Origin: Hyphomicrobiales bacterium
GTDB lineage: Bacteria > Pseudomonadota > Alphaproteobacteria > Rhizobiales > Rhizobiaceae
Length of the DNA stretch: 64,000 bases
Reading direction: 5' to 3'
Assembly: GCA_900466005.1 (NCBI GenBank)
Contig: UEGQ01000003.1
Span: forward strand, 496,001 to 560,000
Both the position numbers and the translations under genes were made by a program. Each line of letters starts with the position of its first letter. Within the stretch, counting starts at the first letter, position 1. Under the pieces are notes generated by a model that did not search any database, had not been told where the DNA came from, and saw nothing but the letters and a program-made list of their open reading frames with translations. This document shows, one piece after another, positions 49,953 through 64,000 of this stretch.

Positions 49953-52900
49953 TCAGTTCGCCAGGACGCGCGGCGAAGGGAAGGTGATCTCGACGAGCGT
50001 GCCCTCGTTCGGAGCCGAGTGGATCGCGAAGCTCGCCCGGTTGGCGTCGACCATTGCCTTGGTCAGCGGCAGGCCGAGCCCGGTGCCGTCGCTGCGACCG
50101 CGCCCACCCGCGGCGACCTGCCGGAACGGCTTCATCGCCATCTCGAGCTCAGTACGCGACATGCCGATGCCGGTGTCGCGGATGCGCAGGACGACGCTGC
50201 CGTTGCTCTCGTAGGAGGTCGACACGATGATCTGTCCGCCCGACGGGGTGAAGCGGATGGCATTCGCCAGGATGTTGAGCACGATCTGCTTGATCGAACG
50301 AAGGTCGGCGACCACATTCGGCACCGACTGCGACAGGGCAGTGCGGATGATCACGCGCTGCGTGTTCGCCTGCGGCTGGACAAGCGAAACGGCAGACGCA
50401 ACGGCTTCGTTCAGGCCGACGGCCTCGAAGTCGAGCTCCATTTCGCCCGCCTCGATCTTGGAGATGTCGAGGAGGTCGTTGACGATGTCGAGCACGTGGC
50501 GGCCGGAGCGAACGATGTCGTTGGCGTATTCGCTATAGCGCGGATGGCCGATCGGGCCGAAGCGCTCACCGGCCATCATGTCGGCAAAGCCGATGATGGC
50601 GTTGAGCGGCGTGCGGATTTCGTGGCTGACGCGTGCGAGGAAGTCGCTCTTGTGGGTGTTGGCGGTTTCGGCCGCGCGCTTGGCGTTGCGCAGTTCCTCC
50701 TCGGTCCGCTTCCATTGCGTGATGTCGCGGATGACGGCGCAATAGCCGTTCGAGGCGGAGAGCTTGCCGATCGTCATGAAGAGCGGCAGGAACCCGCCGG
50801 ACGCCTCGCGGCCGATCACCTCGCGCCCGTCGTTCAGCACGCTTGCGACGCCGTGGCCGGCAAGACCCGCCAGATAATCGAGAACCGCCTTCTGGCTCTC
50901 ATGGGCGAAGAGCATCACGAAGGGTTTGCCTCGGGTCTCCGCCTCGTCGAAGTTGAAGAGGGCGCTTGCCGCACGGTTCATCGAGCGGATGTCGCCCTCG
51001 GGACCGAGCACGACGACGCCGTCGGTCGCCGTTTCGAGTATGGCGCGCAGTTCCTCGATTTCCGCCTTCAGCGCATGGTTCTCGTCGGCGGGCTTCGGCG
51101 CCGGCTCGACGACGGTGAGCTGGACAGGGGGCCGTGCTGCCTTCACCGGAGCTTCGGTGGGGATGAGAGCAAGCAGGAGCGCACTCGACTGTTCCCACCG
51201 CACCGATTGCAGGCGCGCGGTGACCGGCACCAACTTGTCGTCGGCGCGCACCACTACCATGCCGCTTGCCTGCTCGGCGGCACCTTCCAGCTCCTGGCGC
51301 TGAAGCAGCACGTCGAGGCCGCCGGCCTCCGCCAGTGCGTCCAGAGAGCTGTAGCCGGTGAGGTTCAGGAATTCGGGATTGGCGTGAATCAGCCGGTCGC
51401 CGACATGGACGAGCAGTGCCACCGGCATCAAGTCGATGACGTCGGGCGACAGCCCGATGTCACGTCGGCTGCGCGGCACGGCGGTAGATGCAGTCGGCGA
51501 GAGTTCCTCCGCCGGCTGAGCCGGAGTGGATTCGGCGGGCATCTCCGTGACAACAGAGGTCTGCTCTTCCGGTTCAAACACCGGGGTCTCCGGCTCGGGC
51601 TGACCGGCCTCGGCGATCGGCGGCTCCGCAGCACTGTCGCGTGCCTTTTCCTGTTGCGGGGCTTCCGCGCCGATCAGGCCGTTCGCCTCGAGCCGGCGGG
51701 CGATCTCGCGGAAGGCCGCTTGCTCGACCGGGGTGAGGCCGTCGCGGCCGCGCGCACGTCGTTCTTCGAGCTGCACCACCTTGTCGGAATGCCGCTTGCC
51801 AGGTGTTTCGGAGATGAGAAGCGCCGGCGGCTCATTTTCCGGAAGTGGCCGCTCCTCCTGTTCTGCTGCTGTTTCGGCCGGGACGGAGGTCTCCGACGGT
51901 TCGGCTTCCGCGGCTTCCGCGGTCTCTGCGGCGGGTTCTCCGTCCGCCGACGAGACGTCTTCGGAGGGCGCGCCGAGCGTCAGACCCGTGCCGGCGGCGT
52001 CGACGACGGCGTCCGCCAGTCGCACGATGCCGAAGCCACGGAACCCGTCGAAATCGCGGTTGCGGTCATAGGTCGGGAGCGCAGCGAGGTCGACGGGCAC
52101 ACGCAAGGTCGTGCCTTCCACCGGCCAAAAGACGGTGCGCCCGGACCATGTATCGCGACGCTTCAGGAGGTCGGCGATCTTTCCCTCCGGATCGAGGTTG
52201 AACGTCTGCGCGACCTCGACGAAGGTTCGTCCTTCGATGGCCGCCGAATGCGGCCCGACGGCTTCGGCAAATTCCTTCGAGACTTCGCTGAAACGACCTT
52301 CAGCGTCGATCTTCCAGACGAAGCGCGAGGCCCTGCTGCTCGGACGATAGGCGAAGTCACGGTCCGACGTTGCCCCCGTCGCGGAGACCTCCGGTTCGGA
52401 AACGGTGGCCGTTTCCTTCGGTCTCGGTCGTTCCATATCCTCGTGCGGTTGCTCCGCCTCGGGTTCCGTCCGCGCCGGTGTCACGGCCTGCTCGACCGGA
52501 GCTTCCGGGGCAGTTTCCGCCGCCGCGATCGCTTCCGCTTCCGCTTCTTCGGCTTCGGTCGTCAGAGACTCGGGTGCCGTCTCGATCTCTTCGATGTCGC
52601 CGATCGCGTCGACGACGGCGCCGTAAGCGGCGGTCGTATCCTCGGCCGGCGGCTCTTCGGCTGCCGGCGGTTGCGTTGCAGGCTCCTCGAAGCCGCCGCT
52701 CGGATCAAGATTGCCGAGGATGGTCTCCACAGCGAAGAGGAGATAGAGCGCCGGTTCATCGTCGACCTTGCCGATCGCTGCCGGCAGATAGCCACGGCCG
52801 GTCGGGATCGGTCGCTTCACCAGTCGATCGCGGTCGACATCGACGAGTGCCACCAAAGTGCGCGCCGTCTGGGGCGTGATCAACAGGCCGGAAAAGGCGG

Positions 52901-53381
52901 GCGAGGCGGCAATGATCCGGCCGTCGGCGGCAAGCATCGCCATGTGTGTGTCCGGATCGTCGAGCCCGGTCAGCATCTCGCTTGCGCATTCGTCGACACT
53001 CGGCCGTCGGCTTGTCGGCGGTATCGCGAGCAGCACCACCGGCTCGCCCGAGCGGATCTCGACCATCTCGGCGGCCGCCTGAACGGGAACGCGCTGAAAA
53101 CCCTGGGTCAGCCGGAGAAGCAGCGAACGCCGGTCGCCGACTTTCTGCAATTGCCGCGCGGTCGATTCGATCTGGCGGAAGGCGAGGTCGCCGCGGTCGG
53201 GGCCCTGGTCGAGGAAATCGTAGATCGAGCCGTTGCCGAAGAAGCGCGCGCCCGCGCCGTTCGCCCAGAGCACCTGCTCGAGCCCGGCGGAAAACAGCAC
53301 CAGGGCCTCGCCGCGCGCAAAGCGCCCGCGGACACTCTCGTGCACGGCGACGTCGATGAACGGGTACTGCTGAACAGGCAT
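49953..53381 (-). CDS. cbrA: CbrA-type PAS sensor histidine kinase (DivJ/PleC family)
   Basis: A 1142-residue soluble-looking kinase. PAS-type segments lie near 20-120, 345-450, 640-720 and 765-885, joined by Ala/Glu/Pro-rich acidic linkers (about 240-340 and 480-640). The HisKA box is FLARVSHEIRTPLNAIIGFADMM with H920, followed by GERFGPIGHPRYSEYANDI, a hallmark of DivJ/PleC/PdhS kinases. The ATPase domain has N-box NILANAIRFTPSGG, G1 RDTGIGMS and G2 GRSDGTGLGLPLTK. In S. meliloti the syntenic gene cbrA acts on DivK and CtrA to control the cell cycle, exopolysaccharide and flagella. Identity rests on architecture plus neighbouring phaP and acsA2. Confidence 0.88.
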   Translation of the reverse strand: MPVQQYPFIDVAVHESVRGRFARGEALVLFSAGLEQVLWANGAGARFFGNGSIYDFLDQGPDRGDLAFRQIESTARQLQKVGDRRSLLLRLTQGFQRVPVQAAAEMVEIRSGEPVVLLAIPPTSRRPSVDECASEMLTGLDDPDTHMAMLAADGRIIAASPAFSGLLITPQTARTLVALVDVDRDRLVKRPIPTGRGYLPAAIGKVDDEPALYLLFAVETILGNLDPSGGFEEPATQPPAAEEPPAEDTTAAYGAVVDAIGDIEEIETAPESLTTEAEEAEAEAIAAAETAPEAPVEQAVTPARTEPEAEQPHEDMERPRPKETATVSEPEVSATGATSDRDFAYRPSSRASRFVWKIDAEGRFSEVSKEFAEAVGPHSAAIEGRTFVEVAQTFNLDPEGKIADLLKRRDTWSGRTVFWPVEGTTLRVPVDLAALPTYDRNRDFDGFRGFGIVRLADAVVDAAGTGLTLGAPSEDVSSADGEPAAETAEAAEAEPSETSVPAETAAEQEERPLPENEPPALLISETPGKRHSDKVVQLEERRARGRDGLTPVEQAAFREIARRLEANGLIGAEAPQQEKARDSAAEPPIAEAGQPEPETPVFEPEEQTSVVTEMPAESTPAQPAEELSPTASTAVPRSRRDIGLSPDVIDLMPVALLVHVGDRLIHANPEFLNLTGYSSLDALAEAGGLDVLLQRQELEGAAEQASGMVVVRADDKLVPVTARLQSVRWEQSSALLLALIPTEAPVKAARPPVQLTVVEPAPKPADENHALKAEIEELRAILETATDGVVVLGPEGDIRSMNRAASALFNFDEAETRGKPFVMLFAHESQKAVLDYLAGLAGHGVASVLNDGREVIGREASGGFLPLFMTIGKLSASNGYCAVIRDITQWKRTEEELRNAKRAAETANTHKSDFLARVSHEIRTPLNAIIGFADMMAGERFGPIGHPRYSEYANDIVRSGRHVLDIVNDLLDISKIEAGEMELDFEAVGLNEAVASAVSLVQPQANTQRVIIRTALSQSVPNVVADLRSIKQIVLNILANAIRFTPSGGQIIVSTSYESNGSVVLRIRDTGIGMSRTELEMAMKPFRQVAAGGRGRSDGTGLGLPLTKAMVDANRASFAIHSAPNEGTLVEITFPSPRVLAN

Positions 53382-53610: not shown

Positions 53611-54060
53611 ATGGCAAATGCAAACAAGAACGACGTCTTCTCCTTCTCGGCTTTCGACCCGTCGAAGTTCACCGAGACCTTCCGCGACTTCGCCGAAAAG
53701 GGTGCTGCGCAGTCGAAGGACGCCTACGCCAAGATGAAGACTGCCGCCGAGGAGGCCAGCAAGACCGTCGAGAACACGATGCAGACCGCCCAGGCCGGTA
53801 CCGTCGAACTCGGCCTCAAGGCCATCGAAGCCCTGCGGACCAATGCCGACATGTCGCTTTCCCATATGGAAGCGCTGCTCGGCGTGAAGTCGGTTGCCGA
53901 ACTCGTCGAACTGCAGACCGCCTTCCTGCGTAAGCAGGCTGAGGTGACGGTCGAGCAGGCGAAGGCCATGCAGGAAGCCGCCAAGAAGGTTGCCGAGACT
54001 GTTACCAAGCAGGGCAAGGAAGCCGCCGACAAGGCCATGTCTTCGCTGAAGGTCGCCTGA
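53611..54060 (+). CDS. phaP: Phasin, PHB granule surface protein
   Basis: A 149-residue helical protein of the phasin_2 family. The N-terminal FSFSAFDPSKFTETFRDFAEKG and the amphipathic helices AYAKMKTAAEEASKTVENTMQTAQAG and LVELQTAFLRKQAEVTVEQAKAMQEAAKK are typical. It coats polyhydroxybutyrate granules and controls their size and number. AGGAG (53597-53601) supports ATG 53611. The frame is open upstream to 53476, but that part runs through the promoter and PhaR-like sites. A strong terminator follows. Confidence 0.92.
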   Translation: MANANKNDVFSFSAFDPSKFTETFRDFAEKGAAQSKDAYAKMKTAAEEASKTVENTMQTAQAGTVELGLKAIEALRTNADMSLSHMEALLGVKSVAELVELQTAFLRKQAEVTVEQAKAMQEAAKKVAETVTKQGKEAADKAMSSLKVA

Positions 54061-55416: not shown

Positions 55417-56100
55417 ATGTCCTTTATCGATCGGAACGAGGCCGGCGAACGGCTGGCGACGGCGCTTGCCGGCTACCGCGGCACCGACGCGGTGGTCCTG
55501 GCGCTGCCGCGCGGCGGCGTCGAGGTGGGCCTGCCAGTGGCCAGGGCGCTCGGCCTGCCGCTTGATCTTCTCCTTGTGCGCAAGATCGGCGTTCCTTTCC
55601 AGCCGGAGGTCGCCATGGGCGCGATCGTCGACGGCGACAGGCCGGAGGTCGTGCGCAACGAGGATGTAATCCGCTATGCGGGGGTGTCGGACAAGGATTT
55701 CGACGCCGCCTGCCGCAAGCAACTCGAAGAGATCGAGCGCCGCCGCGGCATCTACCTCAAGGGGCGCGAGCCCGTCCCGGTTAGCGGCAGGACCGCCATC
55801 GTCGTGGACGACGGCGTGGCGACCGGGGCGACGCTGAAGGCCGCGCTGAAAGGGCTCGCGGCGAAGAATCCACGCCATATCGTGGTCGCCATGCCGGTGA
55901 TACCGGCAAGCCTGATCCCGGAGCTGGAGGAACTCGCCGAAAAGGTCATCTGCCTCGAAGATCTCGGGCCGATCGGCGCCGTCGGCGCCCACTACCGCTA
56001 TTTCCCCCAGCTCGAAGACGCAGACGTCGTCGCCTGCCTCGATGCCGCGGCGAAGCCAACGGTCGCAACGCCGTCAGGCGGGGGACCTCCGCCGGCGTGA
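55417..56100 (+). CDS. Phosphoribosyltransferase-fold protein (COG1926 type)
   Basis: A 227-residue protein with the type I phosphoribosyltransferase fold. The N-terminal AVVLALPRGGVEVGLPVARALGLPLDLLLVRKIGVP is typical of the COG1926 predicted phosphoribosyltransferases, and the PRPP loop is VVDDGVATGAT at 129-139. The base or acceptor is unknown. GAAGGAGG lies 8 bases before ATG 55417; an in-frame GTG at 55408 is less likely. It converges with a PRPP-synthetase-like gene 12 bases away, so PRPP supply and use are encoded side by side. Confidence 0.85.
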   Translation: MSFIDRNEAGERLATALAGYRGTDAVVLALPRGGVEVGLPVARALGLPLDLLLVRKIGVPFQPEVAMGAIVDGDRPEVVRNEDVIRYAGVSDKDFDAACRKQLEEIERRRGIYLKGREPVPVSGRTAIVVDDGVATGATLKAALKGLAAKNPRHIVVAMPVIPASLIPELEELAEKVICLEDLGPIGAVGAHYRYFPQLEDADVVACLDAAAKPTVATPSGGGPPPA

Positions 56101-56112
56101 GATCGTGCGCAA

Positions 56113-57603
56113 TCAGCCGCCGGAAGGTGTCTGGCATCGGGTGATTGCCGCCGAGAAGATCTCGGCGACCGAGACGCTTGCCAGCCGTTTGCCGAGGGGC
56201 GAGGCGGCGGCATCGACCTGCACGGTATCCGTGATCAACAGTTCCGCGATCGGCGCCCTGGCGAGACGCTCCTCCGCCCCTTGTGAAAACAGCGCGTGCG
56301 TCGCGATCAGCCGAACCTCCCTGGCGCCGCGCGCCATGCAGGCCTCGGCGACCCTGACCATCGTTCCGCCGGAGCTGATGAGGTCGTCGATGATGATCGC
56401 CACGCGGTCCTTCACATCGCCTGCGAAGAGGTCGCCGGAAACGACGCCGGCGCTCCGCTGCTTTTCCATGAAGGCCTTGCCGACCGGTCGCCCGAGCTGC
56501 TTTTCCAGCCGTTCACGGAAGCTGTCGGCGCGTTTTCCGCCGCCGAGATCGGGGGAGACGACGGTGACCTCGGCAGAGCCGACCTTCTCTGCGGTGTGGC
56601 GGGCGAAAGCGTCATAGGCGTCGAGGTGCAGTGTCGGAATGCGGAAGGACGACTGGTAGGCCGCGACATTGTGAGCTTCGATCGTGATCACGCGATCGGC
56701 GCCCATCGCCTCGATGAGTTCGGCGACGTAACGGCCGGTCAACGGATCGCGTGACTTGGTCTGGCGGTCCTTCCGGAGGTAACACAGATAGGGCGTAACC
56801 GCAGTCACGCTCCTCGCGCCGTTGGTCTTCAGCGTCGCGATGAAGAAGAGCAGCCGGCAGAGCCGGTCGTTGGTCGAGTGGCCGCTGCCGCCGTTGAGGC
56901 TTGCGATGACGAAGGTGTCGCGGCCGCGCACGCTTTCGAGCGGCCGTGCCTTGTGCTCTCCGTCCTCGAATTCCCGCTCTTCGAGCAGGCTCAGTTCCAG
57001 CCCCATTGCCCGGGCGACCCTGCCGCCGAACTCGACATCGCGGGCGAAGGAGAAGAGGAGGGGGGTGGTCGCGGCAGCGACTTTCGCCGGGCCGGCAGCA
57101 GCGGCGGCGACCGGGCGCAGGAGCACGCCGCCGAACACCGCGTCGATCGCCCGGCCGTCCCCGGAGAGCGGTGCGACGACGATTTCCGCGACGATGCGGC
57201 CGCCATCCGCCCCGTGGGTCGTGAAGGTGGCGGAGATCGGCTCTCCCGTCCGGCAAACGAACTCGAACAGCATGCGCAGCCGTACGCTGCCGCGCGGGAA
57301 GGCCGCATCCGAAAGCAGCCTCGTGTCGCCTTCCTCGCCGATCAGGGGACGCACGGCCTCGGCGCCCGCATGGAGCACGTAGTCGCGCTCGGCCGTCTTT
57401 GCCCGGCGAAAGATGAAGGCTGCCTGAGGGCTGCCGTGGGCCACCGGTTCGAGCGCCGCAATCGGCGGGGCGATCAGGTCGGCGCGCTTGTCCTTCCACT
57501 CTTCGAGAAGCGCCGCCAGCACTTCGTCCCGCGGGGTAGGCGCGCTGTCGATGCGATCGAAGAACTGCTTCAGGCCGGGGTCGAGTTGAGCAAGCACTGT
57601 CAT
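56113..57603 (-). CDS. PRPP synthetase-like protein fused to an N-terminal PAS-like domain
   Basis: From ATG 57603 (GAGGT upstream) this is 496 residues, far longer than Prs (about 310). Residues about 60-165 read as a PAS_5-type sensor (DYVLHAGAEAV, FEFVCRTGEPISATFTTH, AEIVVAPLSGDGRAIDAVFGG). Residues about 180-480 resemble ribose-phosphate pyrophosphokinase: FEDGEHKARPLESVRGRDTFVI, TPYLCYLRKDRQT, ITIEAHN, VVSPDLGGGKRA and the PRPP loop DDLISSGGT at 406-414. Active-site patterns look intact though divergent (EAH for DLH). It diverges from a kinase-like gene across two FNR/FixK-type boxes. PRPP synthesis itself is inferred. Confidence 0.78.
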   Translation of the reverse strand: MTVLAQLDPGLKQFFDRIDSAPTPRDEVLAALLEEWKDKRADLIAPPIAALEPVAHGSPQAAFIFRRAKTAERDYVLHAGAEAVRPLIGEEGDTRLLSDAAFPRGSVRLRMLFEFVCRTGEPISATFTTHGADGGRIVAEIVVAPLSGDGRAIDAVFGGVLLRPVAAAAAGPAKVAAATTPLLFSFARDVEFGGRVARAMGLELSLLEEREFEDGEHKARPLESVRGRDTFVIASLNGGSGHSTNDRLCRLLFFIATLKTNGARSVTAVTPYLCYLRKDRQTKSRDPLTGRYVAELIEAMGADRVITIEAHNVAAYQSSFRIPTLHLDAYDAFARHTAEKVGSAEVTVVSPDLGGGKRADSFRERLEKQLGRPVGKAFMEKQRSAGVVSGDLFAGDVKDRVAIIIDDLISSGGTMVRVAEACMARGAREVRLIATHALFSQGAEERLARAPIAELLITDTVQVDAAASPLGKRLASVSVAEIFSAAITRCQTPSGG

Positions 57604-57663
57604 GGTAACCTCGCATGCGTGATCGTCGCCCTTGAGCCTTGTCACGTCTGCAGCGCCTCCGTC

Positions 57664-57677
57664 TTGATCGGTGTCAA
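57664..57677. promoter_or_regulatory. FNR/FixK-type box 1 (TTGAT-CGGT-GTCAA)
   Basis: Matches TTGAY-N4-RTCAA exactly. It lies 61 bases upstream of the PAS-Prs start codon, in the 182-base divergent gap, and is the closer box for that gene. Confidence 0.7.
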
Positions 57678-57709
57678 AAGGCGGCGTGGGCTTTCCTGCA
57701 AGACGCGCG

Positions 57710-57723
57710 TTGACAGGCGTCAA
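57710..57723. promoter_or_regulatory. FNR/FixK-type box 2 (TTGAC-AGGC-GTCAA)
   Basis: Second exact TTGAY-N4-RTCAA match, 46 bases from box 1. A TATTAT -10 candidate at 57748-57753 would put the box centre near -43 for the kinase-like gene, close to the class II activator position of about -41.5. Confidence 0.7.
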
Positions 57724-57785
57724 GGCATCCCTGTCTAATCCCGCGCATATTATGATGTCTTCACGGATGGGAAGCCATAGGCCTT

Positions 57786-58820
57786 ATGCCGGTTACGATC
57801 GAAGAGAAGCTCGCCGCGCTCCGAAAGCCTGCGCTCTATGGAAACGGAGCCGCCGAGGTGCTGGCCGTCGAAACCCACATGTCCTGGGTCTTTCTCGTCG
57901 GCGACGTGGTCTACAAGATCAAGAAGCCGGTACATTTTCCCTTCATCGACTTCACGACGCTCGATGCGCGTGAACGGAATTGCCGCGAAGAAGTGCGCCT
58001 GAACCGCCGGCTTGCGCCCGACGTCTATCTCGGCACGGTGGCACTGGTTCGTCGGGCGGATGGGGCCGTCGCGCTCGGAGGCCCTGGTCAGGTGATCGAC
58101 TGGCTGGTGCGCATGCGCCGTTTGCCGCAGGACCGCATGCTGAGCGCGGTGCTCACCGCCGGCGGTGCGGACGGGGCGACGGCCGACCGGCTGACGCGGG
58201 TGCTCGCGGACTTCTACCGCAAGGCGGAGCGCTCGCCGCTCTCCCCGCAGGAGCACGTGCAGTGTTTCGAGAGCCAGCAGGCGCAAAACCGGCAGGTGCT
58301 CAGCCATCGGGATTTCGACGTCGACATGCAGGCCATCCGGCGGGTGCTGAACCGTAACGACGAGTGCCTCCACGCGCTCCGGCCGTTGATCGAGGCGCGG
58401 GTGGCCGACGGCCGCTTCGTCGAGGGACATGGCGACCTCCGGCCGGAACACGTCTGCCTGACCGATCCGATCACGATCATCGATTGCCTGGAGTTCAGCT
58501 ACCTGCTTCGCCTTGTCGACCCCTTCGAGGAGATCGCTTTCCTCGGCATGGAATGCGCCTTCCTCGGCGTACCGGAAATCGGGCGCGAGCTTGCGGCCCG
58601 TCTCGGGGTGGCGTTGGGCGACTCGGTCGCGCCGGAACTCTATCAATTCTATTCCGCCTTCCGTGCGACGATGCGAGCCCGTATGGCGCTCGGCCATCTC
58701 GTCTATGGCCCGGCCGTCAACCGCCGCGCCTGGGAACGCAAGACCGACCGCTACATCGCGCTCGCCGAACATTTTCTCGCCATGCCGGAACTGGCGGCAG
58801 TCTCCGCCCGCGATATGTAA
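57786..58820 (+). CDS. Aminoglycoside-phosphotransferase-fold kinase (COG2187 type)
   Basis: A 344-residue protein resembling the N-terminal half of COG2187 proteins. Features are ETHMSWVFLVGDVVYKIKKPV with the ATP-binding Lys (about 30-50), EEVRLNRRLAPDVYLGTV, and the catalytic loop VEGHGDLRPEHVCL then ITIIDCLEFSYLLRLVDP (Asp residues near 221 and 235). Many relatives are fused to a P-loop kinase domain that is missing here. The substrate is unknown. It diverges from the PAS-Prs gene with two FNR/FixK-type boxes between them. Confidence 0.75.
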   Translation: MPVTIEEKLAALRKPALYGNGAAEVLAVETHMSWVFLVGDVVYKIKKPVHFPFIDFTTLDARERNCREEVRLNRRLAPDVYLGTVALVRRADGAVALGGPGQVIDWLVRMRRLPQDRMLSAVLTAGGADGATADRLTRVLADFYRKAERSPLSPQEHVQCFESQQAQNRQVLSHRDFDVDMQAIRRVLNRNDECLHALRPLIEARVADGRFVEGHGDLRPEHVCLTDPITIIDCLEFSYLLRLVDPFEEIAFLGMECAFLGVPEIGRELAARLGVALGDSVAPELYQFYSAFRATMRARMALGHLVYGPAVNRRAWERKTDRYIALAEHFLAMPELAAVSARDM

Positions 58821-58865: not shown

Positions 58866-59522
58866 ATGCTGCTTAAACTGCGCAAGGTCAGCAAATCCTA
58901 CATGACGGCCGAGGGGCCGCTTGAAGTCCTGCACGAGGTCGACCTTGCGCTCGATGCCGGAAGCACGCTGGCCCTCACCGGGGAGTCGGGCAGCGGCAAG
59001 TCGACCCTTCTTCATCTGGCCGCCGGCCTCGACTCACCGGATTCGGGTGTCGTCGAGGTCGCCGGTCAGAACGTCGCGACGCTCGATGACGCGGGCAGGG
59101 CGGCGTTGCGGCGCGGCACCGTCGGCCTCGTCTTCCAGCAATTCAACCTTATTCCCTCGCTCGACGTGGCGGCGAACCTTGCCTTTCATGCGCGGCTTGC
59201 CGGCCGGCATGACCCCCGTTGGCAGGCGGAGCTGACGGAAAGACTCGGCCTGAGCAGTCTCACGCGACGCTATCCCGAGCAGCTTTCCGGCGGGCAGCAG
59301 CAGCGGGTAGCGATCGGCCGTACGCTTGCCGCACGTCCGAAACTGGTTCTCGCCGACGAGCCGACCGGCAATCTCGACGAGCCGACGGGCGACGCCGTGC
59401 TCGCGCTGATGCTGACGCTGGTCGCCGAGACCGGGGCCGCTCTTCTGATGGTCACTCATTCTGAGCGCCTCGCCGCGCAACTCGATCGTCGCGTCCACCT
59501 CAAGGCCGGGCGGATTGCATGA
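58866..59522 (+). CDS. LolD/MacB-type ABC transporter ATPase
   Basis: A 218-residue ATPase. Walker A is GESGSGKST (39-47), Q-loop VFQQFNLIPSLDV, signature LSGGQQQRVAIGRT, Walker B LVLADEPTGNLD and H-loop VTHSERLA. The QxxQFNLIPxLxxxxN pattern marks the MacB/LolD/FtsE (type VII) group, which works with FtsX-like permeases as mechanotransmission pumps. ATG 58866 follows GAGGAC; a GTG at 58824 is less likely. Its stop overlaps the permease start (ATGA). Confidence 0.9.
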   Translation: MLLKLRKVSKSYMTAEGPLEVLHEVDLALDAGSTLALTGESGSGKSTLLHLAAGLDSPDSGVVEVAGQNVATLDDAGRAALRRGTVGLVFQQFNLIPSLDVAANLAFHARLAGRHDPRWQAELTERLGLSSLTRRYPEQLSGGQQQRVAIGRTLAARPKLVLADEPTGNLDEPTGDAVLALMLTLVAETGAALLMVTHSERLAAQLDRRVHLKAGRIA

Positions 59523-61930
59523 TGTGGCTTGCGGGGCTCGGCGCACTCCTTTCCCATTGGCGGCGCCAGCCGCTGCAGTTTGCCATGCTGTTTGCCGGAC
59601 TGGCGCTCGCCACCGGTCTCTGGTCCGGGGTGCAGGCGATCAATGCCGAGGCGCGGGCAAGCTATGGCCGGGCTGCCGCCATGCTCGGGCAGAACCGGCT
59701 CGAACAACTCGTGGCAAAGGACGGAGGATCGATCGCCGGTGACCGGTTCGCGGCCCTGCGGCGCGGCGGCTGGCTCGTCTCGCCGGTGGTCGAAGGCGAG
59801 TTGCGGGTGGGCAGCCTGCGCCTGCGGCTGATCGGCATCGATCCGCTGACGCTACCGGCCGAGGCGCGGCAGGTGGAGGTGACGGGCGGCGAGGCACTGC
59901 GCCGCTTCCTGACACCGCCGGGCCTTATCTTCGCAAGTCGCGAGACAGCAGGACAACTTGCCGGCGAGCGATTGCCGCCGCTCGAGATCGCCGAGGATAT
60001 TCCGGCCGGAACCGCGATCACCGATATCGCCGTCGCCCGCGATCTGCTCGGACAGACGGAGATGATATCGCGCTTCGTCCTCGCGCCGGAACAGCCTTTG
60101 GGGCGAACGCCGCTTGCCGATCTCGCGCCGGACCTGGAGCTGCGAAAGCCCGACGCGCAGGGCGATCTCGCCCGCCTCACCGACAGCTTCCACCTGAACC
60201 TCACCGCTTTCGGAATGCTTGCCTTCGTCGTCGGGCTCTTCATCGTCTATTCGGCGATCGGTCTCGCCTTCGAACAGCGCCGACCGACCTTGCGCACGCT
60301 CCGGTCGCTCGGGCTTCCGGCCAGCGCCCTGACCATCCTGCTCGTGACCGAACTGGCGACCCTTTCGCTGGTTGCCGGGCTCTTCGGCGTGGCGCTCGGC
60401 TATCTCGTCGCCTCGGCGCTGCTGCCCGACGTAGCGGCGACCCTCCGCGGCCTCTATGGCGCCGACGTTCCGGGAACGCTGCAGCTGCGGCCGGAATGGT
60501 GGGCGACGGGGCTTGCGATCGCCGTCGCCGGCACGCTCGCCGCGGCCGGCCAGAACCTCTGGCGCGCCGCCCGGATGCCGCTTCTCGCGCCTGCCCAGCC
60601 ACGCGCCTGGGCGCGTGCCTCGGAGGCGGGCCTGCGGGTACAGGCGGTCGCCGCCGTATCTCTGTTTGTCGTGGCACTCGCGCTTACCCTTTGGGGACAG
60701 GACCTCGTCGCCGGCTTCGCCTTGCTCGGTGCCGTGCTGCTCGGTGCGGCACTTTTCCTGCCGGTGCTGCTGATGGCGCTGCTCGCGCTTTTCGAGAGGC
60801 TCTCGTCGGGACCGGTGTCGGCCTGGTTCTGGGCCGACACGCGCCAGCAACTGCCGCGGCTTTCGCTGGCGCTCATGGCGCTGTTGTTGGCCCTTGCCGC
60901 GAACGTCGGCGTCGGCACCATGGTGGCAAGCTTCCGGCTCACCTTCACCGGCTGGCTCGATCAGCGGCTGGCCGCCGAGCTCTACGTGACGGCCCGGACG
61001 GAGGACGAGGCGCGCGCCCTGCGCAACTGGCTCGAACCGCGCGTCGATGCTGCGCTGCCGATCTGGCATGTCGAGGGAGAGGTGCTGGGCGGTCCGGCGG
61101 AAATCTACGGGGTCGCCGATCATGCGACCTACCGGGAGAAATGGCCGCTCATCGAGTCCGTGCAGGGAGTCTGGGATGCCGTTGCTCGCGGAGACGCAGT
61201 GGTGATCAACGAGCAGCTCGCCCGCCGTCACGGGATTGCGCCCGACGATCGGCTGGCCTTGCCGGGAGGATGGACGGTTACGGTCGCCGGCATCTATTCC
61301 GACTACGGCAACCCGATCGGACAGGTGATCGTCGGCATCGACGCACTCACCGTGCATTACCCGGACGTGCCGCGGCTGCGCTTTGGTATCAGGCTTCCGC
61401 CGGCCGAGGCACCGGCACTCGCCGAGGCGTTGCGGGCGGAATTCGACCTGCCGCCGCAGAATGTCCTCGATCAGGCGAGCATCAAGGAGCGCTCGCTGCA
61501 GGTGTTCGAGCGCACCTTCGCTGTGACGGCGGCGCTCAACGTGCTGACGCTCGGGGTTGCGGGCGTGGCGATGTTCGCGAGCCTGACCACCCTTTCCGGC
61601 ATCCGCCTCGCGCAGATCGCTCCGGTCTGGGCGATGGGGCTTACGCGCAAGCGTCTGGTGCTGCTCGAACTCCTGAGGACCATGCTGCTTTCGGCCTTCA
61701 CGCTGGTTGCGGCCCTCCCGACAGGCGTCGCGCTCGCCTGGGTGCTGCTCTCGGTGGTCAATGTCGCTGCCTTCGGCTGGAGGCTGCCGATGTATCTCTT
61801 CCCGACCGACTGGCTGCGCCTTGCATTCCTCGCCGGACTTGCTTCACTCGTCTCGGTTGCGATACCCTTGCGGCGGCTCGCAAGGGTGACGCCAGCCGAT
61901 CTTCTCAAGGTCTTCGCCAATGAACGTTAG
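59519..61930 (+). CDS. FtsX-domain ABC permease (AttF/AttG-like, large form)
   Basis: An 803-residue permease with an N-terminal helix (about 10-30), a periplasmic domain (about 35-220), three helices of a first FtsX domain (about 225-350), a second set of helices and periplasmic part (about 380-680), and a final FtsX domain (about 685-800; VAMFASLTTLSGIRLAQIAPVWAMGLTRKRLVLLELLRT). This is the duplicated-FtsX layout of LolCE/AttFG-like systems. Coupled to the ATPase (ATGA) and overlapping the next gene by 11 bases, it forms an export cassette. Confidence 0.85.
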   Translation: MMWLAGLGALLSHWRRQPLQFAMLFAGLALATGLWSGVQAINAEARASYGRAAAMLGQNRLEQLVAKDGGSIAGDRFAALRRGGWLVSPVVEGELRVGSLRLRLIGIDPLTLPAEARQVEVTGGEALRRFLTPPGLIFASRETAGQLAGERLPPLEIAEDIPAGTAITDIAVARDLLGQTEMISRFVLAPEQPLGRTPLADLAPDLELRKPDAQGDLARLTDSFHLNLTAFGMLAFVVGLFIVYSAIGLAFEQRRPTLRTLRSLGLPASALTILLVTELATLSLVAGLFGVALGYLVASALLPDVAATLRGLYGADVPGTLQLRPEWWATGLAIAVAGTLAAAGQNLWRAARMPLLAPAQPRAWARASEAGLRVQAVAAVSLFVVALALTLWGQDLVAGFALLGAVLLGAALFLPVLLMALLALFERLSSGPVSAWFWADTRQQLPRLSLALMALLLALAANVGVGTMVASFRLTFTGWLDQRLAAELYVTARTEDEARALRNWLEPRVDAALPIWHVEGEVLGGPAEIYGVADHATYREKWPLIESVQGVWDAVARGDAVVINEQLARRHGIAPDDRLALPGGWTVTVAGIYSDYGNPIGQVIVGIDALTVHYPDVPRLRFGIRLPPAEAPALAEALRAEFDLPPQNVLDQASIKERSLQVFERTFAVTAALNVLTLGVAGVAMFASLTTLSGIRLAQIAPVWAMGLTRKRLVLLELLRTMLLSAFTLVAALPTGVALAWVLLSVVNVAAFGWRLPMYLFPTDWLRLAFLAGLASLVSVAIPLRRLARVTPADLLKVFANER

Positions 61931-62996
61931 GGCGTGCCTCCTTCTCCTGCTTGTCTCGGCCGCCGTACTGCCCGCGTCGACGTGGGCGCAGGGGTTCGCG
62001 GGCCTCGGCTCACAGGCCGAAGGCTTTGCCGTTCCCGAGCGCGGCGTGCCTCTCGTCTTCCCGCGCGATCACGGCGCCCATCCCGACTATCGCATCGAAT
62101 GGTGGTACCTGACCGCGAACCTGAGATCCGCCGACGGCCGAAGCTTCGGGTTGCAATGGACGCTGTTTCGTTCCGCACTCACGCCCGACGGCAAGGAGGC
62201 TTCCCAGATCTGGATGGGACACGCGGCGGCGACGTCGGCCGAACGGCACCTCGTTGCCGAACGCCTCGCCCGCGGCGGCACCGGACAGGCCGGCGTGACA
62301 CTGGCGCCGTTCTCGGCATGGATCGACGACTGGAAGATGGAAAGTCGCGTGAGTGCCGAGGCGCTTGCCGCCGGTGCCGACCCGCTTTCCAGCCTTGCGC
62401 TCGGCGCCTCGGGCAAGGATTTCCGCTATTCGATGGAGCTGGAGGCCAGGGGGGCGCTCGTGCCGCAGGGCGACCGCGGCTATTCGGTCAAATCGGCCGA
62501 GGGGCAGGCGAGCTACTATTATTCGCAGCCCTTCTATACGATCAGCGGCACGCTGGTTCTGCCCGAGGGGGAGGTCGCGGTCACGGGTGAGGCGTGGCTC
62601 GACCGGGAATGGTCGTCGCAGCCGCTCTCCGCCGGCCAGACCGGCTGGGACTGGTTCTCGCTGCATCTCGGCAGTGGCGAGAAGTTGATGGCCTTCCGGC
62701 TGCGCGGCGACGGCCACGGCTACATGTCCGGCACCTGGATTTCCGCCGATGGGCGGCCGACACCACTCGGGCCTTCCGACCTCGCTGTCACGCCACTCGA
62801 TACGGCGAGCGTCGCCGGTCACGTCCTGCCGGTTCGCTGGCGGGTCGAGGTTCCCGGCCACGATTTCGACGTGACAACCGCGGCGTTGAACGTCGACGCC
62901 TGGATGGCCGTCTCCTTTCCCTATTGGGAAGGACCGATCCGCTTTTCAGGGTCGCATGAGGGACAGGGCTATCTGGAAATGACCGGATACAGGTAG
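61920..62996 (+). CDS. AttH/CrtC-like lipocalin-type periplasmic protein
   Basis: A 358-residue protein with a Sec signal (cleavage near WAQG, residue 23). The mature part carries the AttH/CrtC hydroxyneurosporene-synthase-like pattern: FPRDHGAHPDYRIEWWYLTANL (about 45-66), ASYYYSQPFYTISGTL, and GEAWLDREWSSQPLSAGQTGWDWFSLHL. AttH proteins form two linked lipocalin-like barrels and are encoded with ABC-FtsX permeases. Overlap with the permease gene supports one transport unit, perhaps handling a lipid. The substrate is unknown. Confidence 0.85.
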   Translation: MNVRACLLLLLVSAAVLPASTWAQGFAGLGSQAEGFAVPERGVPLVFPRDHGAHPDYRIEWWYLTANLRSADGRSFGLQWTLFRSALTPDGKEASQIWMGHAAATSAERHLVAERLARGGTGQAGVTLAPFSAWIDDWKMESRVSAEALAAGADPLSSLALGASGKDFRYSMELEARGALVPQGDRGYSVKSAEGQASYYYSQPFYTISGTLVLPEGEVAVTGEAWLDREWSSQPLSAGQTGWDWFSLHLGSGEKLMAFRLRGDGHGYMSGTWISADGRPTPLGPSDLAVTPLDTASVAGHVLPVRWRVEVPGHDFDVTTAALNVDAWMAVSFPYWEGPIRFSGSHEGQGYLEMTGYR

Positions 62997-63005
62997 CCGG
63001 CCGGT

Positions 63006-63641
63006 TCAGGCGAGTTCGATTCCGTGCGAGGCGAGGTTGGCGGCCAGTTCCACGGCATTCCGGGCCTGCATTTTTGCAAGGATACGGGCGCGGTGGACTT
63101 CGACGGTGCGCATGGAAATGGAAAGCGCATCCGCGATCTGCTTGTTCAGCATGCCGGCCATCAACAACTTCAGCACGTCCATCTCGCGCGCCGAAAGCAG
63201 TTGCAGCTGCTGTTCGATCAACGCGCGCTGCCGGCTTTCCGACATCTTGCCGAAGCGCTTCTCGAGGCAGGCGATGACAGTGTTGACGAGCTGGTTGTCG
63301 TTGAAGGGTTTCTCGATGAAATCGGCAGCGCCCGTCTTCAGCGCCTCGACGGCGACCGGCACGTCGCCGTGTCCGGTGAGGAACACCACGGGCGCCTCGC
63401 AGCCCGCGGCCTTCAGCCGGTTGAAGGTCTCGAGCCCCGACAGCCCGCCCATGCGCATGTCGAGGATGATGCAGGAAAAGGGTTCGAGCGGCAGTGCTGC
63501 GAGCAACGCTTCGCCGCTTTCGAACGGAATGGCGCGCATCTGCCGGGACATGAGGAGGAAGGCGAGGGAATCGCGGATCGCGGGATCGTCGTCGACGAGA
63601 TAGACGGCGGCGTCCTTCAGGAAGGGCTTTGCTGAAATCAT
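63006..63641 (-). CDS. FixJ/DctR-type response regulator
   Basis: A 211-residue regulator. The receiver (about 10-125) has acidic pocket DDDP (about 17-20), phospho-acceptor Asp in IILDMRM (about residue 60), Thr in FLTGHG and Lys in IEKPF. The LuxR/GerE helix-turn-helix (about 145-205) is LLSAREMDVLKLLMAGMLNKQIADALSISMRTVEVHRARILAKM. The pattern is FixJ/TodT/DctR-like, and the overlap (ATGA) with the upstream kinase gene indicates a two-component pair. The signal and targets are not evident. Confidence 0.9.
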   Translation of the reverse strand: MISAKPFLKDAAVYLVDDDPAIRDSLAFLLMSRQMRAIPFESGEALLAALPLEPFSCIILDMRMGGLSGLETFNRLKAAGCEAPVVFLTGHGDVPVAVEALKTGAADFIEKPFNDNQLVNTVIACLEKRFGKMSESRQRALIEQQLQLLSAREMDVLKLLMAGMLNKQIADALSISMRTVEVHRARILAKMQARNAVELAANLASHGIELA

Positions 63642-64000
63642 TCGGCCGCCGCCCTTTCGGGTTGAGGCACCGGCAGAACGATCGAGAAGACCGTGCCGCC
63701 GGTCGGGATCGGATGGTGTTCGAGCCGCCCGTGGTGCAGCTCGATGATCGTGCGGCAGATGTTGAGCCCCATCCCCATACCGTCCTGCTTGCTGGTCACG
63801 AAGGGCTCGAAAAGACGCCCGGCGACCGTCGGCGAGATGCCCGGCCCGCTGTCCCGGACCTCGATCACCTGGTGATCGTCCTCCTGGCGCAGTTCGACCT
63901 CCAGCCGCACGCGCCGCGTCGACGGTCCCCCCATGGCCTCGATGCCGTTGCGCATCAGGTTGATCATCACCTGCTCCATCAGGATGCGGTCGGCACGCAC
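63638..64000 (-). CDS. Sensor histidine kinase, C-terminal part (runs off the window)
   Basis: The last 120 residues of a kinase whose 5' part lies beyond 64000. The ATPase domain is clear: N-box LMEQVMINLMRNGIEAM, G1 EVRDSGPGIS, F-box LFEPFVTSKQ, G2 DGMGMGLNICRTIIELHHG. The F-box and G2 style is that of FixL/DctS/TodS-type kinases. It ends overlapping the FixJ-type regulator start by 4 bases, its obvious partner. Whether a PAS-haem sensor precedes it cannot be seen. Confidence 0.9.
   Translation of the reverse strand: MRADRILMEQVMINLMRNGIEAMGGPSTRRVRLEVELRQEDDHQVIEVRDSGPGISPTVAGRLFEPFVTSKQDGMGMGLNICRTIIELHHGRLEHHPIPTGGTVFSIVLPVPQPERAAAE

Follow-up and report, generated by a model that had tools for sequence, protein, structure and literature searches.

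Described low-oxygen control regions

The anaeroboxes of rhizobial FixK/FnrN promoters, among them those of fixNOQP and fnrN, are the closest described relatives of the control region reported here, and in the excerpted text of PMC7888657 the activating boxes stand at a fixed -32 to -34 from the start. The motif class is the same as at our locus, and a two-box region is described there as well, at fnrN (PMC7888657, same excerpts). In R. leguminosarum fnrN, however, both boxes act on one gene, one activating it and the other repressing it (PMC7888657), whereas the boxes here lie between two divergent genes, each nearest to one of them. The core regulons of FNR, FixK and DNR in alphaproteobacteria belong to the same site class, and these three regulators have very similar target sites according to the available excerpts of PMC2908626. 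The FixK list given there includes an Hsp20, a CBS protein and a 'putative kinase', RSP0470; a word search of the text of PMC2908626 found no mention of pyrophosphokinase, phosphoribosyl or aminoglycoside. In Bradyrhizobium diazoefficiens the ribose-phosphate pyrophosphokinase gene bll3116 is induced by microoxia (log2 4.4 for protein, 7.7-fold for RNA), and so resembles the gene prs2 of our locus, as we read it, in being a PRPP synthetase gene that is up in low oxygen (PMC6515984, in part). In the same excerpts bll3116 is not marked as a FixK2 target, and its listed neighbours encode an MBL hydrolase and a protein of the thymidine phosphorylase family (PMC6515984).

For FNR/FixK boxes on a pair of prs2 and a kinase-like gene, we found no report in the open-licence literature, where absence counts little. 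In the DosR hypoxia regulon of Mycobacterium, the hypoxia-induced genes Rv2004c and Rv0571c are APH-like and phosphoribosyltransferase-domain genes; DosR is a different regulator from FNR/FixK, and the two cases are likened here by description alone.

Two boxes in a divergent gap

The window, by which we mean the whole 64-kb stretch of DNA analysed, contains a 182-base intergenic gap between two divergent genes, and this gap holds two FNR/FixK-type boxes:

56113-57603, minus strand: PRPP synthetase gene of the second type (prs2; prs for short), 496 aa with an N-terminal extension; TIGR01251, 231.1 bits against a cut-off of 113
57664-57677, no strand assigned: box 1, TTGATCGGTGTCAA, the prs-proximal FNR/FixK-type box; exact motif match
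57710-57723, no strand assigned: box 2, TTGACAGGCGTCAA, the kinase-proximal FNR/FixK-type box; exact motif match
57786-58820, plus strand: kinase-like (APH-type) gene, 344 aa; Pfam APH, 20.5 bits against a gathering score of 23.2

Both 14-mers lie exactly where the initial annotation had placed them, and a motif search finds them to be the only two strict matches to TTGAY-N4-RTCAA in the window. Shuffled versions of the window gave a mean of 0.13 strict matches, and one shuffle of 100 gave two anywhere in the window. With one mismatch allowed there are five matches against 3.35 expected, and 25 of 100 shuffles had as many, so that only the strict form of the motif is informative in the window. 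Measured from its centre, box 1 stands 67.5 nt away from the start codon of prs (57603); box 2, with its centre at 57716.5, stands 69.5 nt away from that of the kinase-like gene (57786).

The genome-wide motif scan that had been proposed as a check bears out the enrichment. In this genome (5.01 Mb in 42 contigs, close to Ciceribacter lividus) there are 57 strict sites, as against 5 for a reversed-pattern control. By sequence, the 182-base gap is a real and conserved candidate control region of the low-oxygen type, and as such a known kind of switch. As low-oxygen promoters go, the boxes are ordinary; their targets are less so. The more interesting result is the conserved partnership of prs2 and the kinase-like gene under a divergent control region. 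We think it likely, with some room for doubt, that the boxes are FNR/FixK-family operators which activate the pair at low oxygen, as a prs2/kinase-like module that tunes PRPP supply.

Conservation of the boxes

The initial annotation had staked its prediction on conservation in relatives, and here the boxes are kept. A box precedes prs in all six of the Ciceribacter genomes found with the same prs, and five of the six have the strict pair, the exception being C. daejeonense, where the kinase-proximal box is broken. The centre-to-centre spacing of the two boxes is 46 nt in the C. lividus group, as against 37 nt in the other Ciceribacter group.

Might the two matches be due to chance, or be a by-product of coding in an N-terminally longer PRPP synthetase? 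The prs reading frame is indeed open upstream, through both boxes, back to a TTG at 57723, and the reversed control does have five matches in the genome. The half-site cores, however, are kept while the centre and flanks change: between our genome and genome G173, 0 of 16 core positions changed versus 29 of 153 elsewhere (p 0.042), and between C. sichuanensis and C. naphthalenivorans 0 of 16 versus 52 of 119 (p 0.0002); in the comparison of C. sichuanensis with Rhizobium (Ciceribacter) daejeonense the rate was 1 of 16 versus 19 of 119 (p 0.27), which is not below background. We read the gap as non-coding because protein similarity to relatives begins at the prs ATG and because, ahead of that ATG, the alignment with a relative at 93% identity is interrupted by indels of 1 and 5 nt, and on the same two grounds the boxes were rejected as coding sequence. 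Pairs of boxes before prs2 in other genera (L009, L012) also speak against chance or coding, which we regard as very improbable.

Beyond Ciceribacter the boxes are found at some loci of both gene families. Within 300 nt before the kinase-like gene, a box is present in 7 and absent in 8 of 15 loci of the order (our own locus, L206, being excluded), present in 10 and absent in 11 of 21 named alphaproteobacterial loci, and present in 2 of 44 others; the longer APH-AAA relatives have one in 4 of 14 cases within the same distance. Within 300 nt before prs2, the counts are 5 of 9 family loci, 4 of 22 named alphaproteobacterial loci and 1 of 50 others. Which of the 72 named loci count as alphaproteobacterial was decided by us from record titles and general taxonomy. 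No box was seen within 300 nt of canonical prs (0 of 44 loci) or of PAS-prs outside Ciceribacter (0 of 4), and the reversed-motif control gave 0 in every set of relatives, for kinase-like and prs loci alike. The prs protein similarity search retained the best 80 of 204 loci, and L135, L137, L138 and L139 were excluded from the counts as duplicates of L055, L056, L058 and L057; several clusters of the neighbour census are antisense frames, and only its box counts are used. At L060, L061 and L062 a box stands before a co-directional gene that precedes prs.

In L009 and L012, two other genomes of the family, the centres of the paired boxes before prs2 are 41 and 43 nt apart, and the genes divergent from prs2 are CBS-like and Hsp20-like by eye.

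The box regulon and candidate regulators

We examined 51 of the 57 genome sites in context, plus one before a ccoN gene. Of these 51 sites, 44 are intergenic and 43 lie no more than 350 nt upstream of a called gene, the gene calls being those of a home-made caller that placed some starts wrongly (L056:10001 and L058:7176 are examples). When the 51 sites are scored against a leave-one-out matrix, box 1 ranks 29th and box 2 50th, which counts against the pair. A Pfam scan covered 20 of the 59 target proteins of the genome's boxes, and among those 20 are an FNR-type regulator, a radical-SAM protein with a HemN C-terminal domain, NnrS, COX2, PPDK, a beta-CASP hydrolase, two Usp proteins, FtsH, Hsp20 and archease; one of the 20, L187, had no Pfam match. 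The scanned box targets also include a multicopper oxidase, NirK-like by eye, and a 4Fe-4S/FMN-binding protein, NosR-like by eye. Two ccoN genes score over the cut-off; one has a strict box 321 nt before the aligned start, and the second has no strict box within 400 nt.

The genome encodes regulators of the right kind. One protein has N-terminal cysteines at positions 21, 27, 30 and 38 and the helix ETVSR, and another has the ETVSR helix without the four-cysteine cluster; the names FnrN-like and FixK-like that we give them are descriptive, because both fall under the NCBIfam cut-offs, and among the regulators scored only L041 (FtrB) is above cut-off. Each of two further superfamily regulators, L041 being one of them, has a box upstream of its own gene.

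Which regulator would serve the boxes? The boxes alone, as sequences, do not separate FixK, FnrN and DNR, and because the three have very similar targets (PMC2908626, in part) an NO-responsive regulator of the DNR type is possible. That the boxes are served mainly by such a DNR/NnrR-type protein, with the genes answering to denitrification and not to low oxygen itself, would fit the NnrS, NirK-like and NosR-like genes among the box targets, as well as the two superfamily regulators with boxes before their own genes. We consider this unlikely, however, given the FnrN-like and FixK-like proteins of the genome, the score of L041 as FtrB, and the regulators encoded next to prs in three sister species, for which the best NCBIfam score, below cut-off, is FnrL/FixK-like and not DNR-like. 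Control by an FNR/FixK-type activator is the reading that we prefer.

The FnrL/FixK-like gene in question comes next after prs in three other Ciceribacter species (L056:9806-10627, L057:9674-10513 and L058:9739-10551), and in none of the three does its product show an obvious cluster of four cysteines. Upstream of it, at about 90 nt, C. sichuanensis and C. naphthalenivorans have a strict box and daejeonense (L057) a box with one mismatch.

RNA repair may form part of one stress set with the box regulon: in our genome a strict box lies 102.5 nt before the archease gene (L185, C23:32518), and an RtcB ligase gene is found near prs2 in L099.

Promoter geometry

When -10-like hexamers were averaged over 57 site-directions, with the window's own four left out, a peak was found at base 37 from the box start, which is the position for class II FNR promoters (box centre at -41.5). 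One of 2000 shuffles reached the height of this peak at any offset, and none did so at offset 37. In 16 promoters of relatives the peak is likewise at base 37. The candidate elements in the gap are the following:

57746-57753, plus strand: candidate -10s of the kinase-like gene, CATATT (57746-57751) and TATTAT (57748-57753), at bases 37 and 39 from the start of box 2
57734-57739, plus strand: competing -10, TCTAAT, 18 nt after the TTGACA of box 2; offset 25
57636-57641, minus strand: CAAGGC, the hexamer at the class II -10 position for prs; a poor -10

For the kinase-like gene the class II spacing is present, with CATATT at 37 and TATTAT at 39, and both hexamers are identical in C. lividus and G173. 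The placing of box 2 near -43 in the initial annotation fits a predicted transcription start near 57758, and not the start codon at 57786. C. sichuanensis and C. naphthalenivorans showed no good -10 on the kinase side. For prs, the class II offset (base 37) offers only CAAGGC here and weak hexamers in relatives.

A second arrangement on the kinase side has to be weighed, in which box 2 overlaps a sigma-70 -35 element and a bound FNR-type protein represses the kinase-like gene. TTGACA at 57710 and TCTAAT at 57734 are separated by an 18-nt spacer and are unchanged in C. lividus and G173. However, a sigma-70 promoter scan of 57500-57900 reported no site; TCTAAT has no A at position 2, which the rule of the scan requires, so that TTGACA-N18-TCTAAT was assessed by hand. 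The two hexamers at the class II distance, CATATT and TATTAT, are just as well conserved, the genome-wide -10 peak is at base 37 and not at 25, and none of C. sichuanensis, C. daejeonense and C. naphthalenivorans shows the -35 overlap arrangement. Repression from box 2 is, we judge, a little less probable again than service by a DNR-type protein, and class II activation of the kinase-like gene is preferred.

As far as sequence can test it, the earlier prediction of FNR/FixK-type control is supported: the enrichment, the low-oxygen targets, the encoded regulators, the conservation and the class II geometry of the kinase-like gene all agree with it. Activation of prs is less well supported than that of the kinase-like gene because there is no good -10 at the right distance in our own species.

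The conserved partnership of prs2 and the kinase-like gene

By its score against a curated family, prs2 is predicted to encode a PRPP synthetase (ribose-phosphate diphosphokinase). The product is 97% identical to its Ciceribacter lividus counterpart and has about 180 extra N-terminal residues; PDB relatives cover residues 182-490. The N-terminal region is predicted from a structural model to be a PAS-fold domain:

57100-57603, minus strand: PAS-fold N-terminal domain of the PRPP synthetase (about residues 1-168); AlphaFold2 model and Foldseek

The AlphaFold2 model of this domain, built with ten sequences, has a pLDDT of 84.1 and a pTM of 0.81, and LOV/PAS structures head its Foldseek matches (best E 1e-4, TM to query 0.43). 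Three of four relatives that were scanned pass Pfam PAS_5, and the protein of the window has no Pfam PAS match; since the match of the window protein is one of fold only, we use the term PAS-fold and do not assign it to PAS_5.

The partner is called kinase-like only, because its Pfam APH match is under the gathering score, and no PDB sequence relative was found at E <= 1. A third gene recurs in the neighbourhood:

55417-56100, plus strand: phosphoribosyltransferase-domain gene, a recurrent neighbour; Pfam Pribosyltran, 44.3 bits

A relative of this gene is near 37 of the 72 named prs2 loci. Full-length prs is present in 6 of 63 Ciceribacter genomes, and a single-domain kinase-like gene (at least 48% identity) in 6 of the 62 genomes of the genus that were searched, the same six as for prs. 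A kinase-like relative is near 9 of 10 PAS-prs, 8 of 9 family prs2 and 65 of 72 named prs2 loci, versus none of 44 canonical prs loci. Flanks were 1.5 kb for loci outside the named set, all 44 canonical ones among them, and up to 8 kb for the named loci, so that the comparison with canonical prs at equal flanks is that of the family loci (8 of 9). These counts argue that this type of prs2 and the kinase-like gene are conserved partners, in a pairing that is little studied. The usual orientation, read from coordinates, is tail-to-tail (53 of 65 named pairs and 7 of 8 family pairs); the two genes are head-to-head in the six Ciceribacter genomes, and head-to-head with another gene between them in two Microvirga loci and in L006.

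Genes for nicotinate phosphoribosyltransferase, a PRPP user, are near some prs2 genes (L059:9541-10890, L060:4158-5522 and L113:5508-6863). The frame L099:6485-7969 was dropped as a thymidine phosphorylase neighbour; it has no Pfam match, and its hits in L059 and L060 lie on the strand opposite to the nicotinate phosphoribosyltransferase genes there, and its counts are not used.

A proposed low-oxygen switch

How would the gap work? As oxygen falls, a dimer of the FnrN or FixK type would bind both operators in the 182-base gap. From box 2, whose centre is some 41.5 nt upstream of the predicted kinase-like transcription start, it would activate the kinase-like gene in class II fashion, and from box 1 it would do likewise for the PAS-fused PRPP synthetase gene; each box may also boost activation of the other gene from farther upstream. 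Low oxygen would in this way probably switch on both prs2 and the kinase-like gene, and the pair would be the low-oxygen form of a widespread prs2/kinase-like module, adjusting PRPP for nucleotide or NAD salvage.

The synthesis of nucleotides, NAD, histidine and tryptophan draws on PRPP. A second synthetase switched by oxygen, together with a kinase-like partner that is unstudied, would tie respiration to the nucleotide economy, and the pairing, which none of the 44 canonical prs loci examined shows, offers a direct way into the function of the kinase-like family. It is tempting to go further, and to see in the pair a widespread PRPP-handling module that serves under energy stress and has come repeatedly under FNR/FixK control in Alphaproteobacteria; with the head-to-head arrangement and the PAS fusion of Ciceribacter, oxygen or redox state may then act on both transcription and enzyme. 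This wider view is offered tentatively, as one that we would sooner expect to fail than to hold.

Other genes of the window

Behind the kinase-like gene, on the same strand (58866-62996), are genes for an ABC ATPase, an FtsX-like permease and a CrtC/lipocalin protein. Near the pair, 63006-64000 holds a FixJ-like response regulator gene followed by the end of a kinase-like sensor gene. The regulator (63006-63641) was dropped as evidence for FixLJ, as it scores 211.6 bits against a FixJ cut-off of 255; the corresponding sensor of C. lividus (L055:2-1954) looks membrane-bound by eye. On the other side of the pair, 49953-53381 is a PdhS-type histidine kinase gene (1018.6 bits, under the cut-off of 2000), and near it is a phasin gene at 53611-54060.
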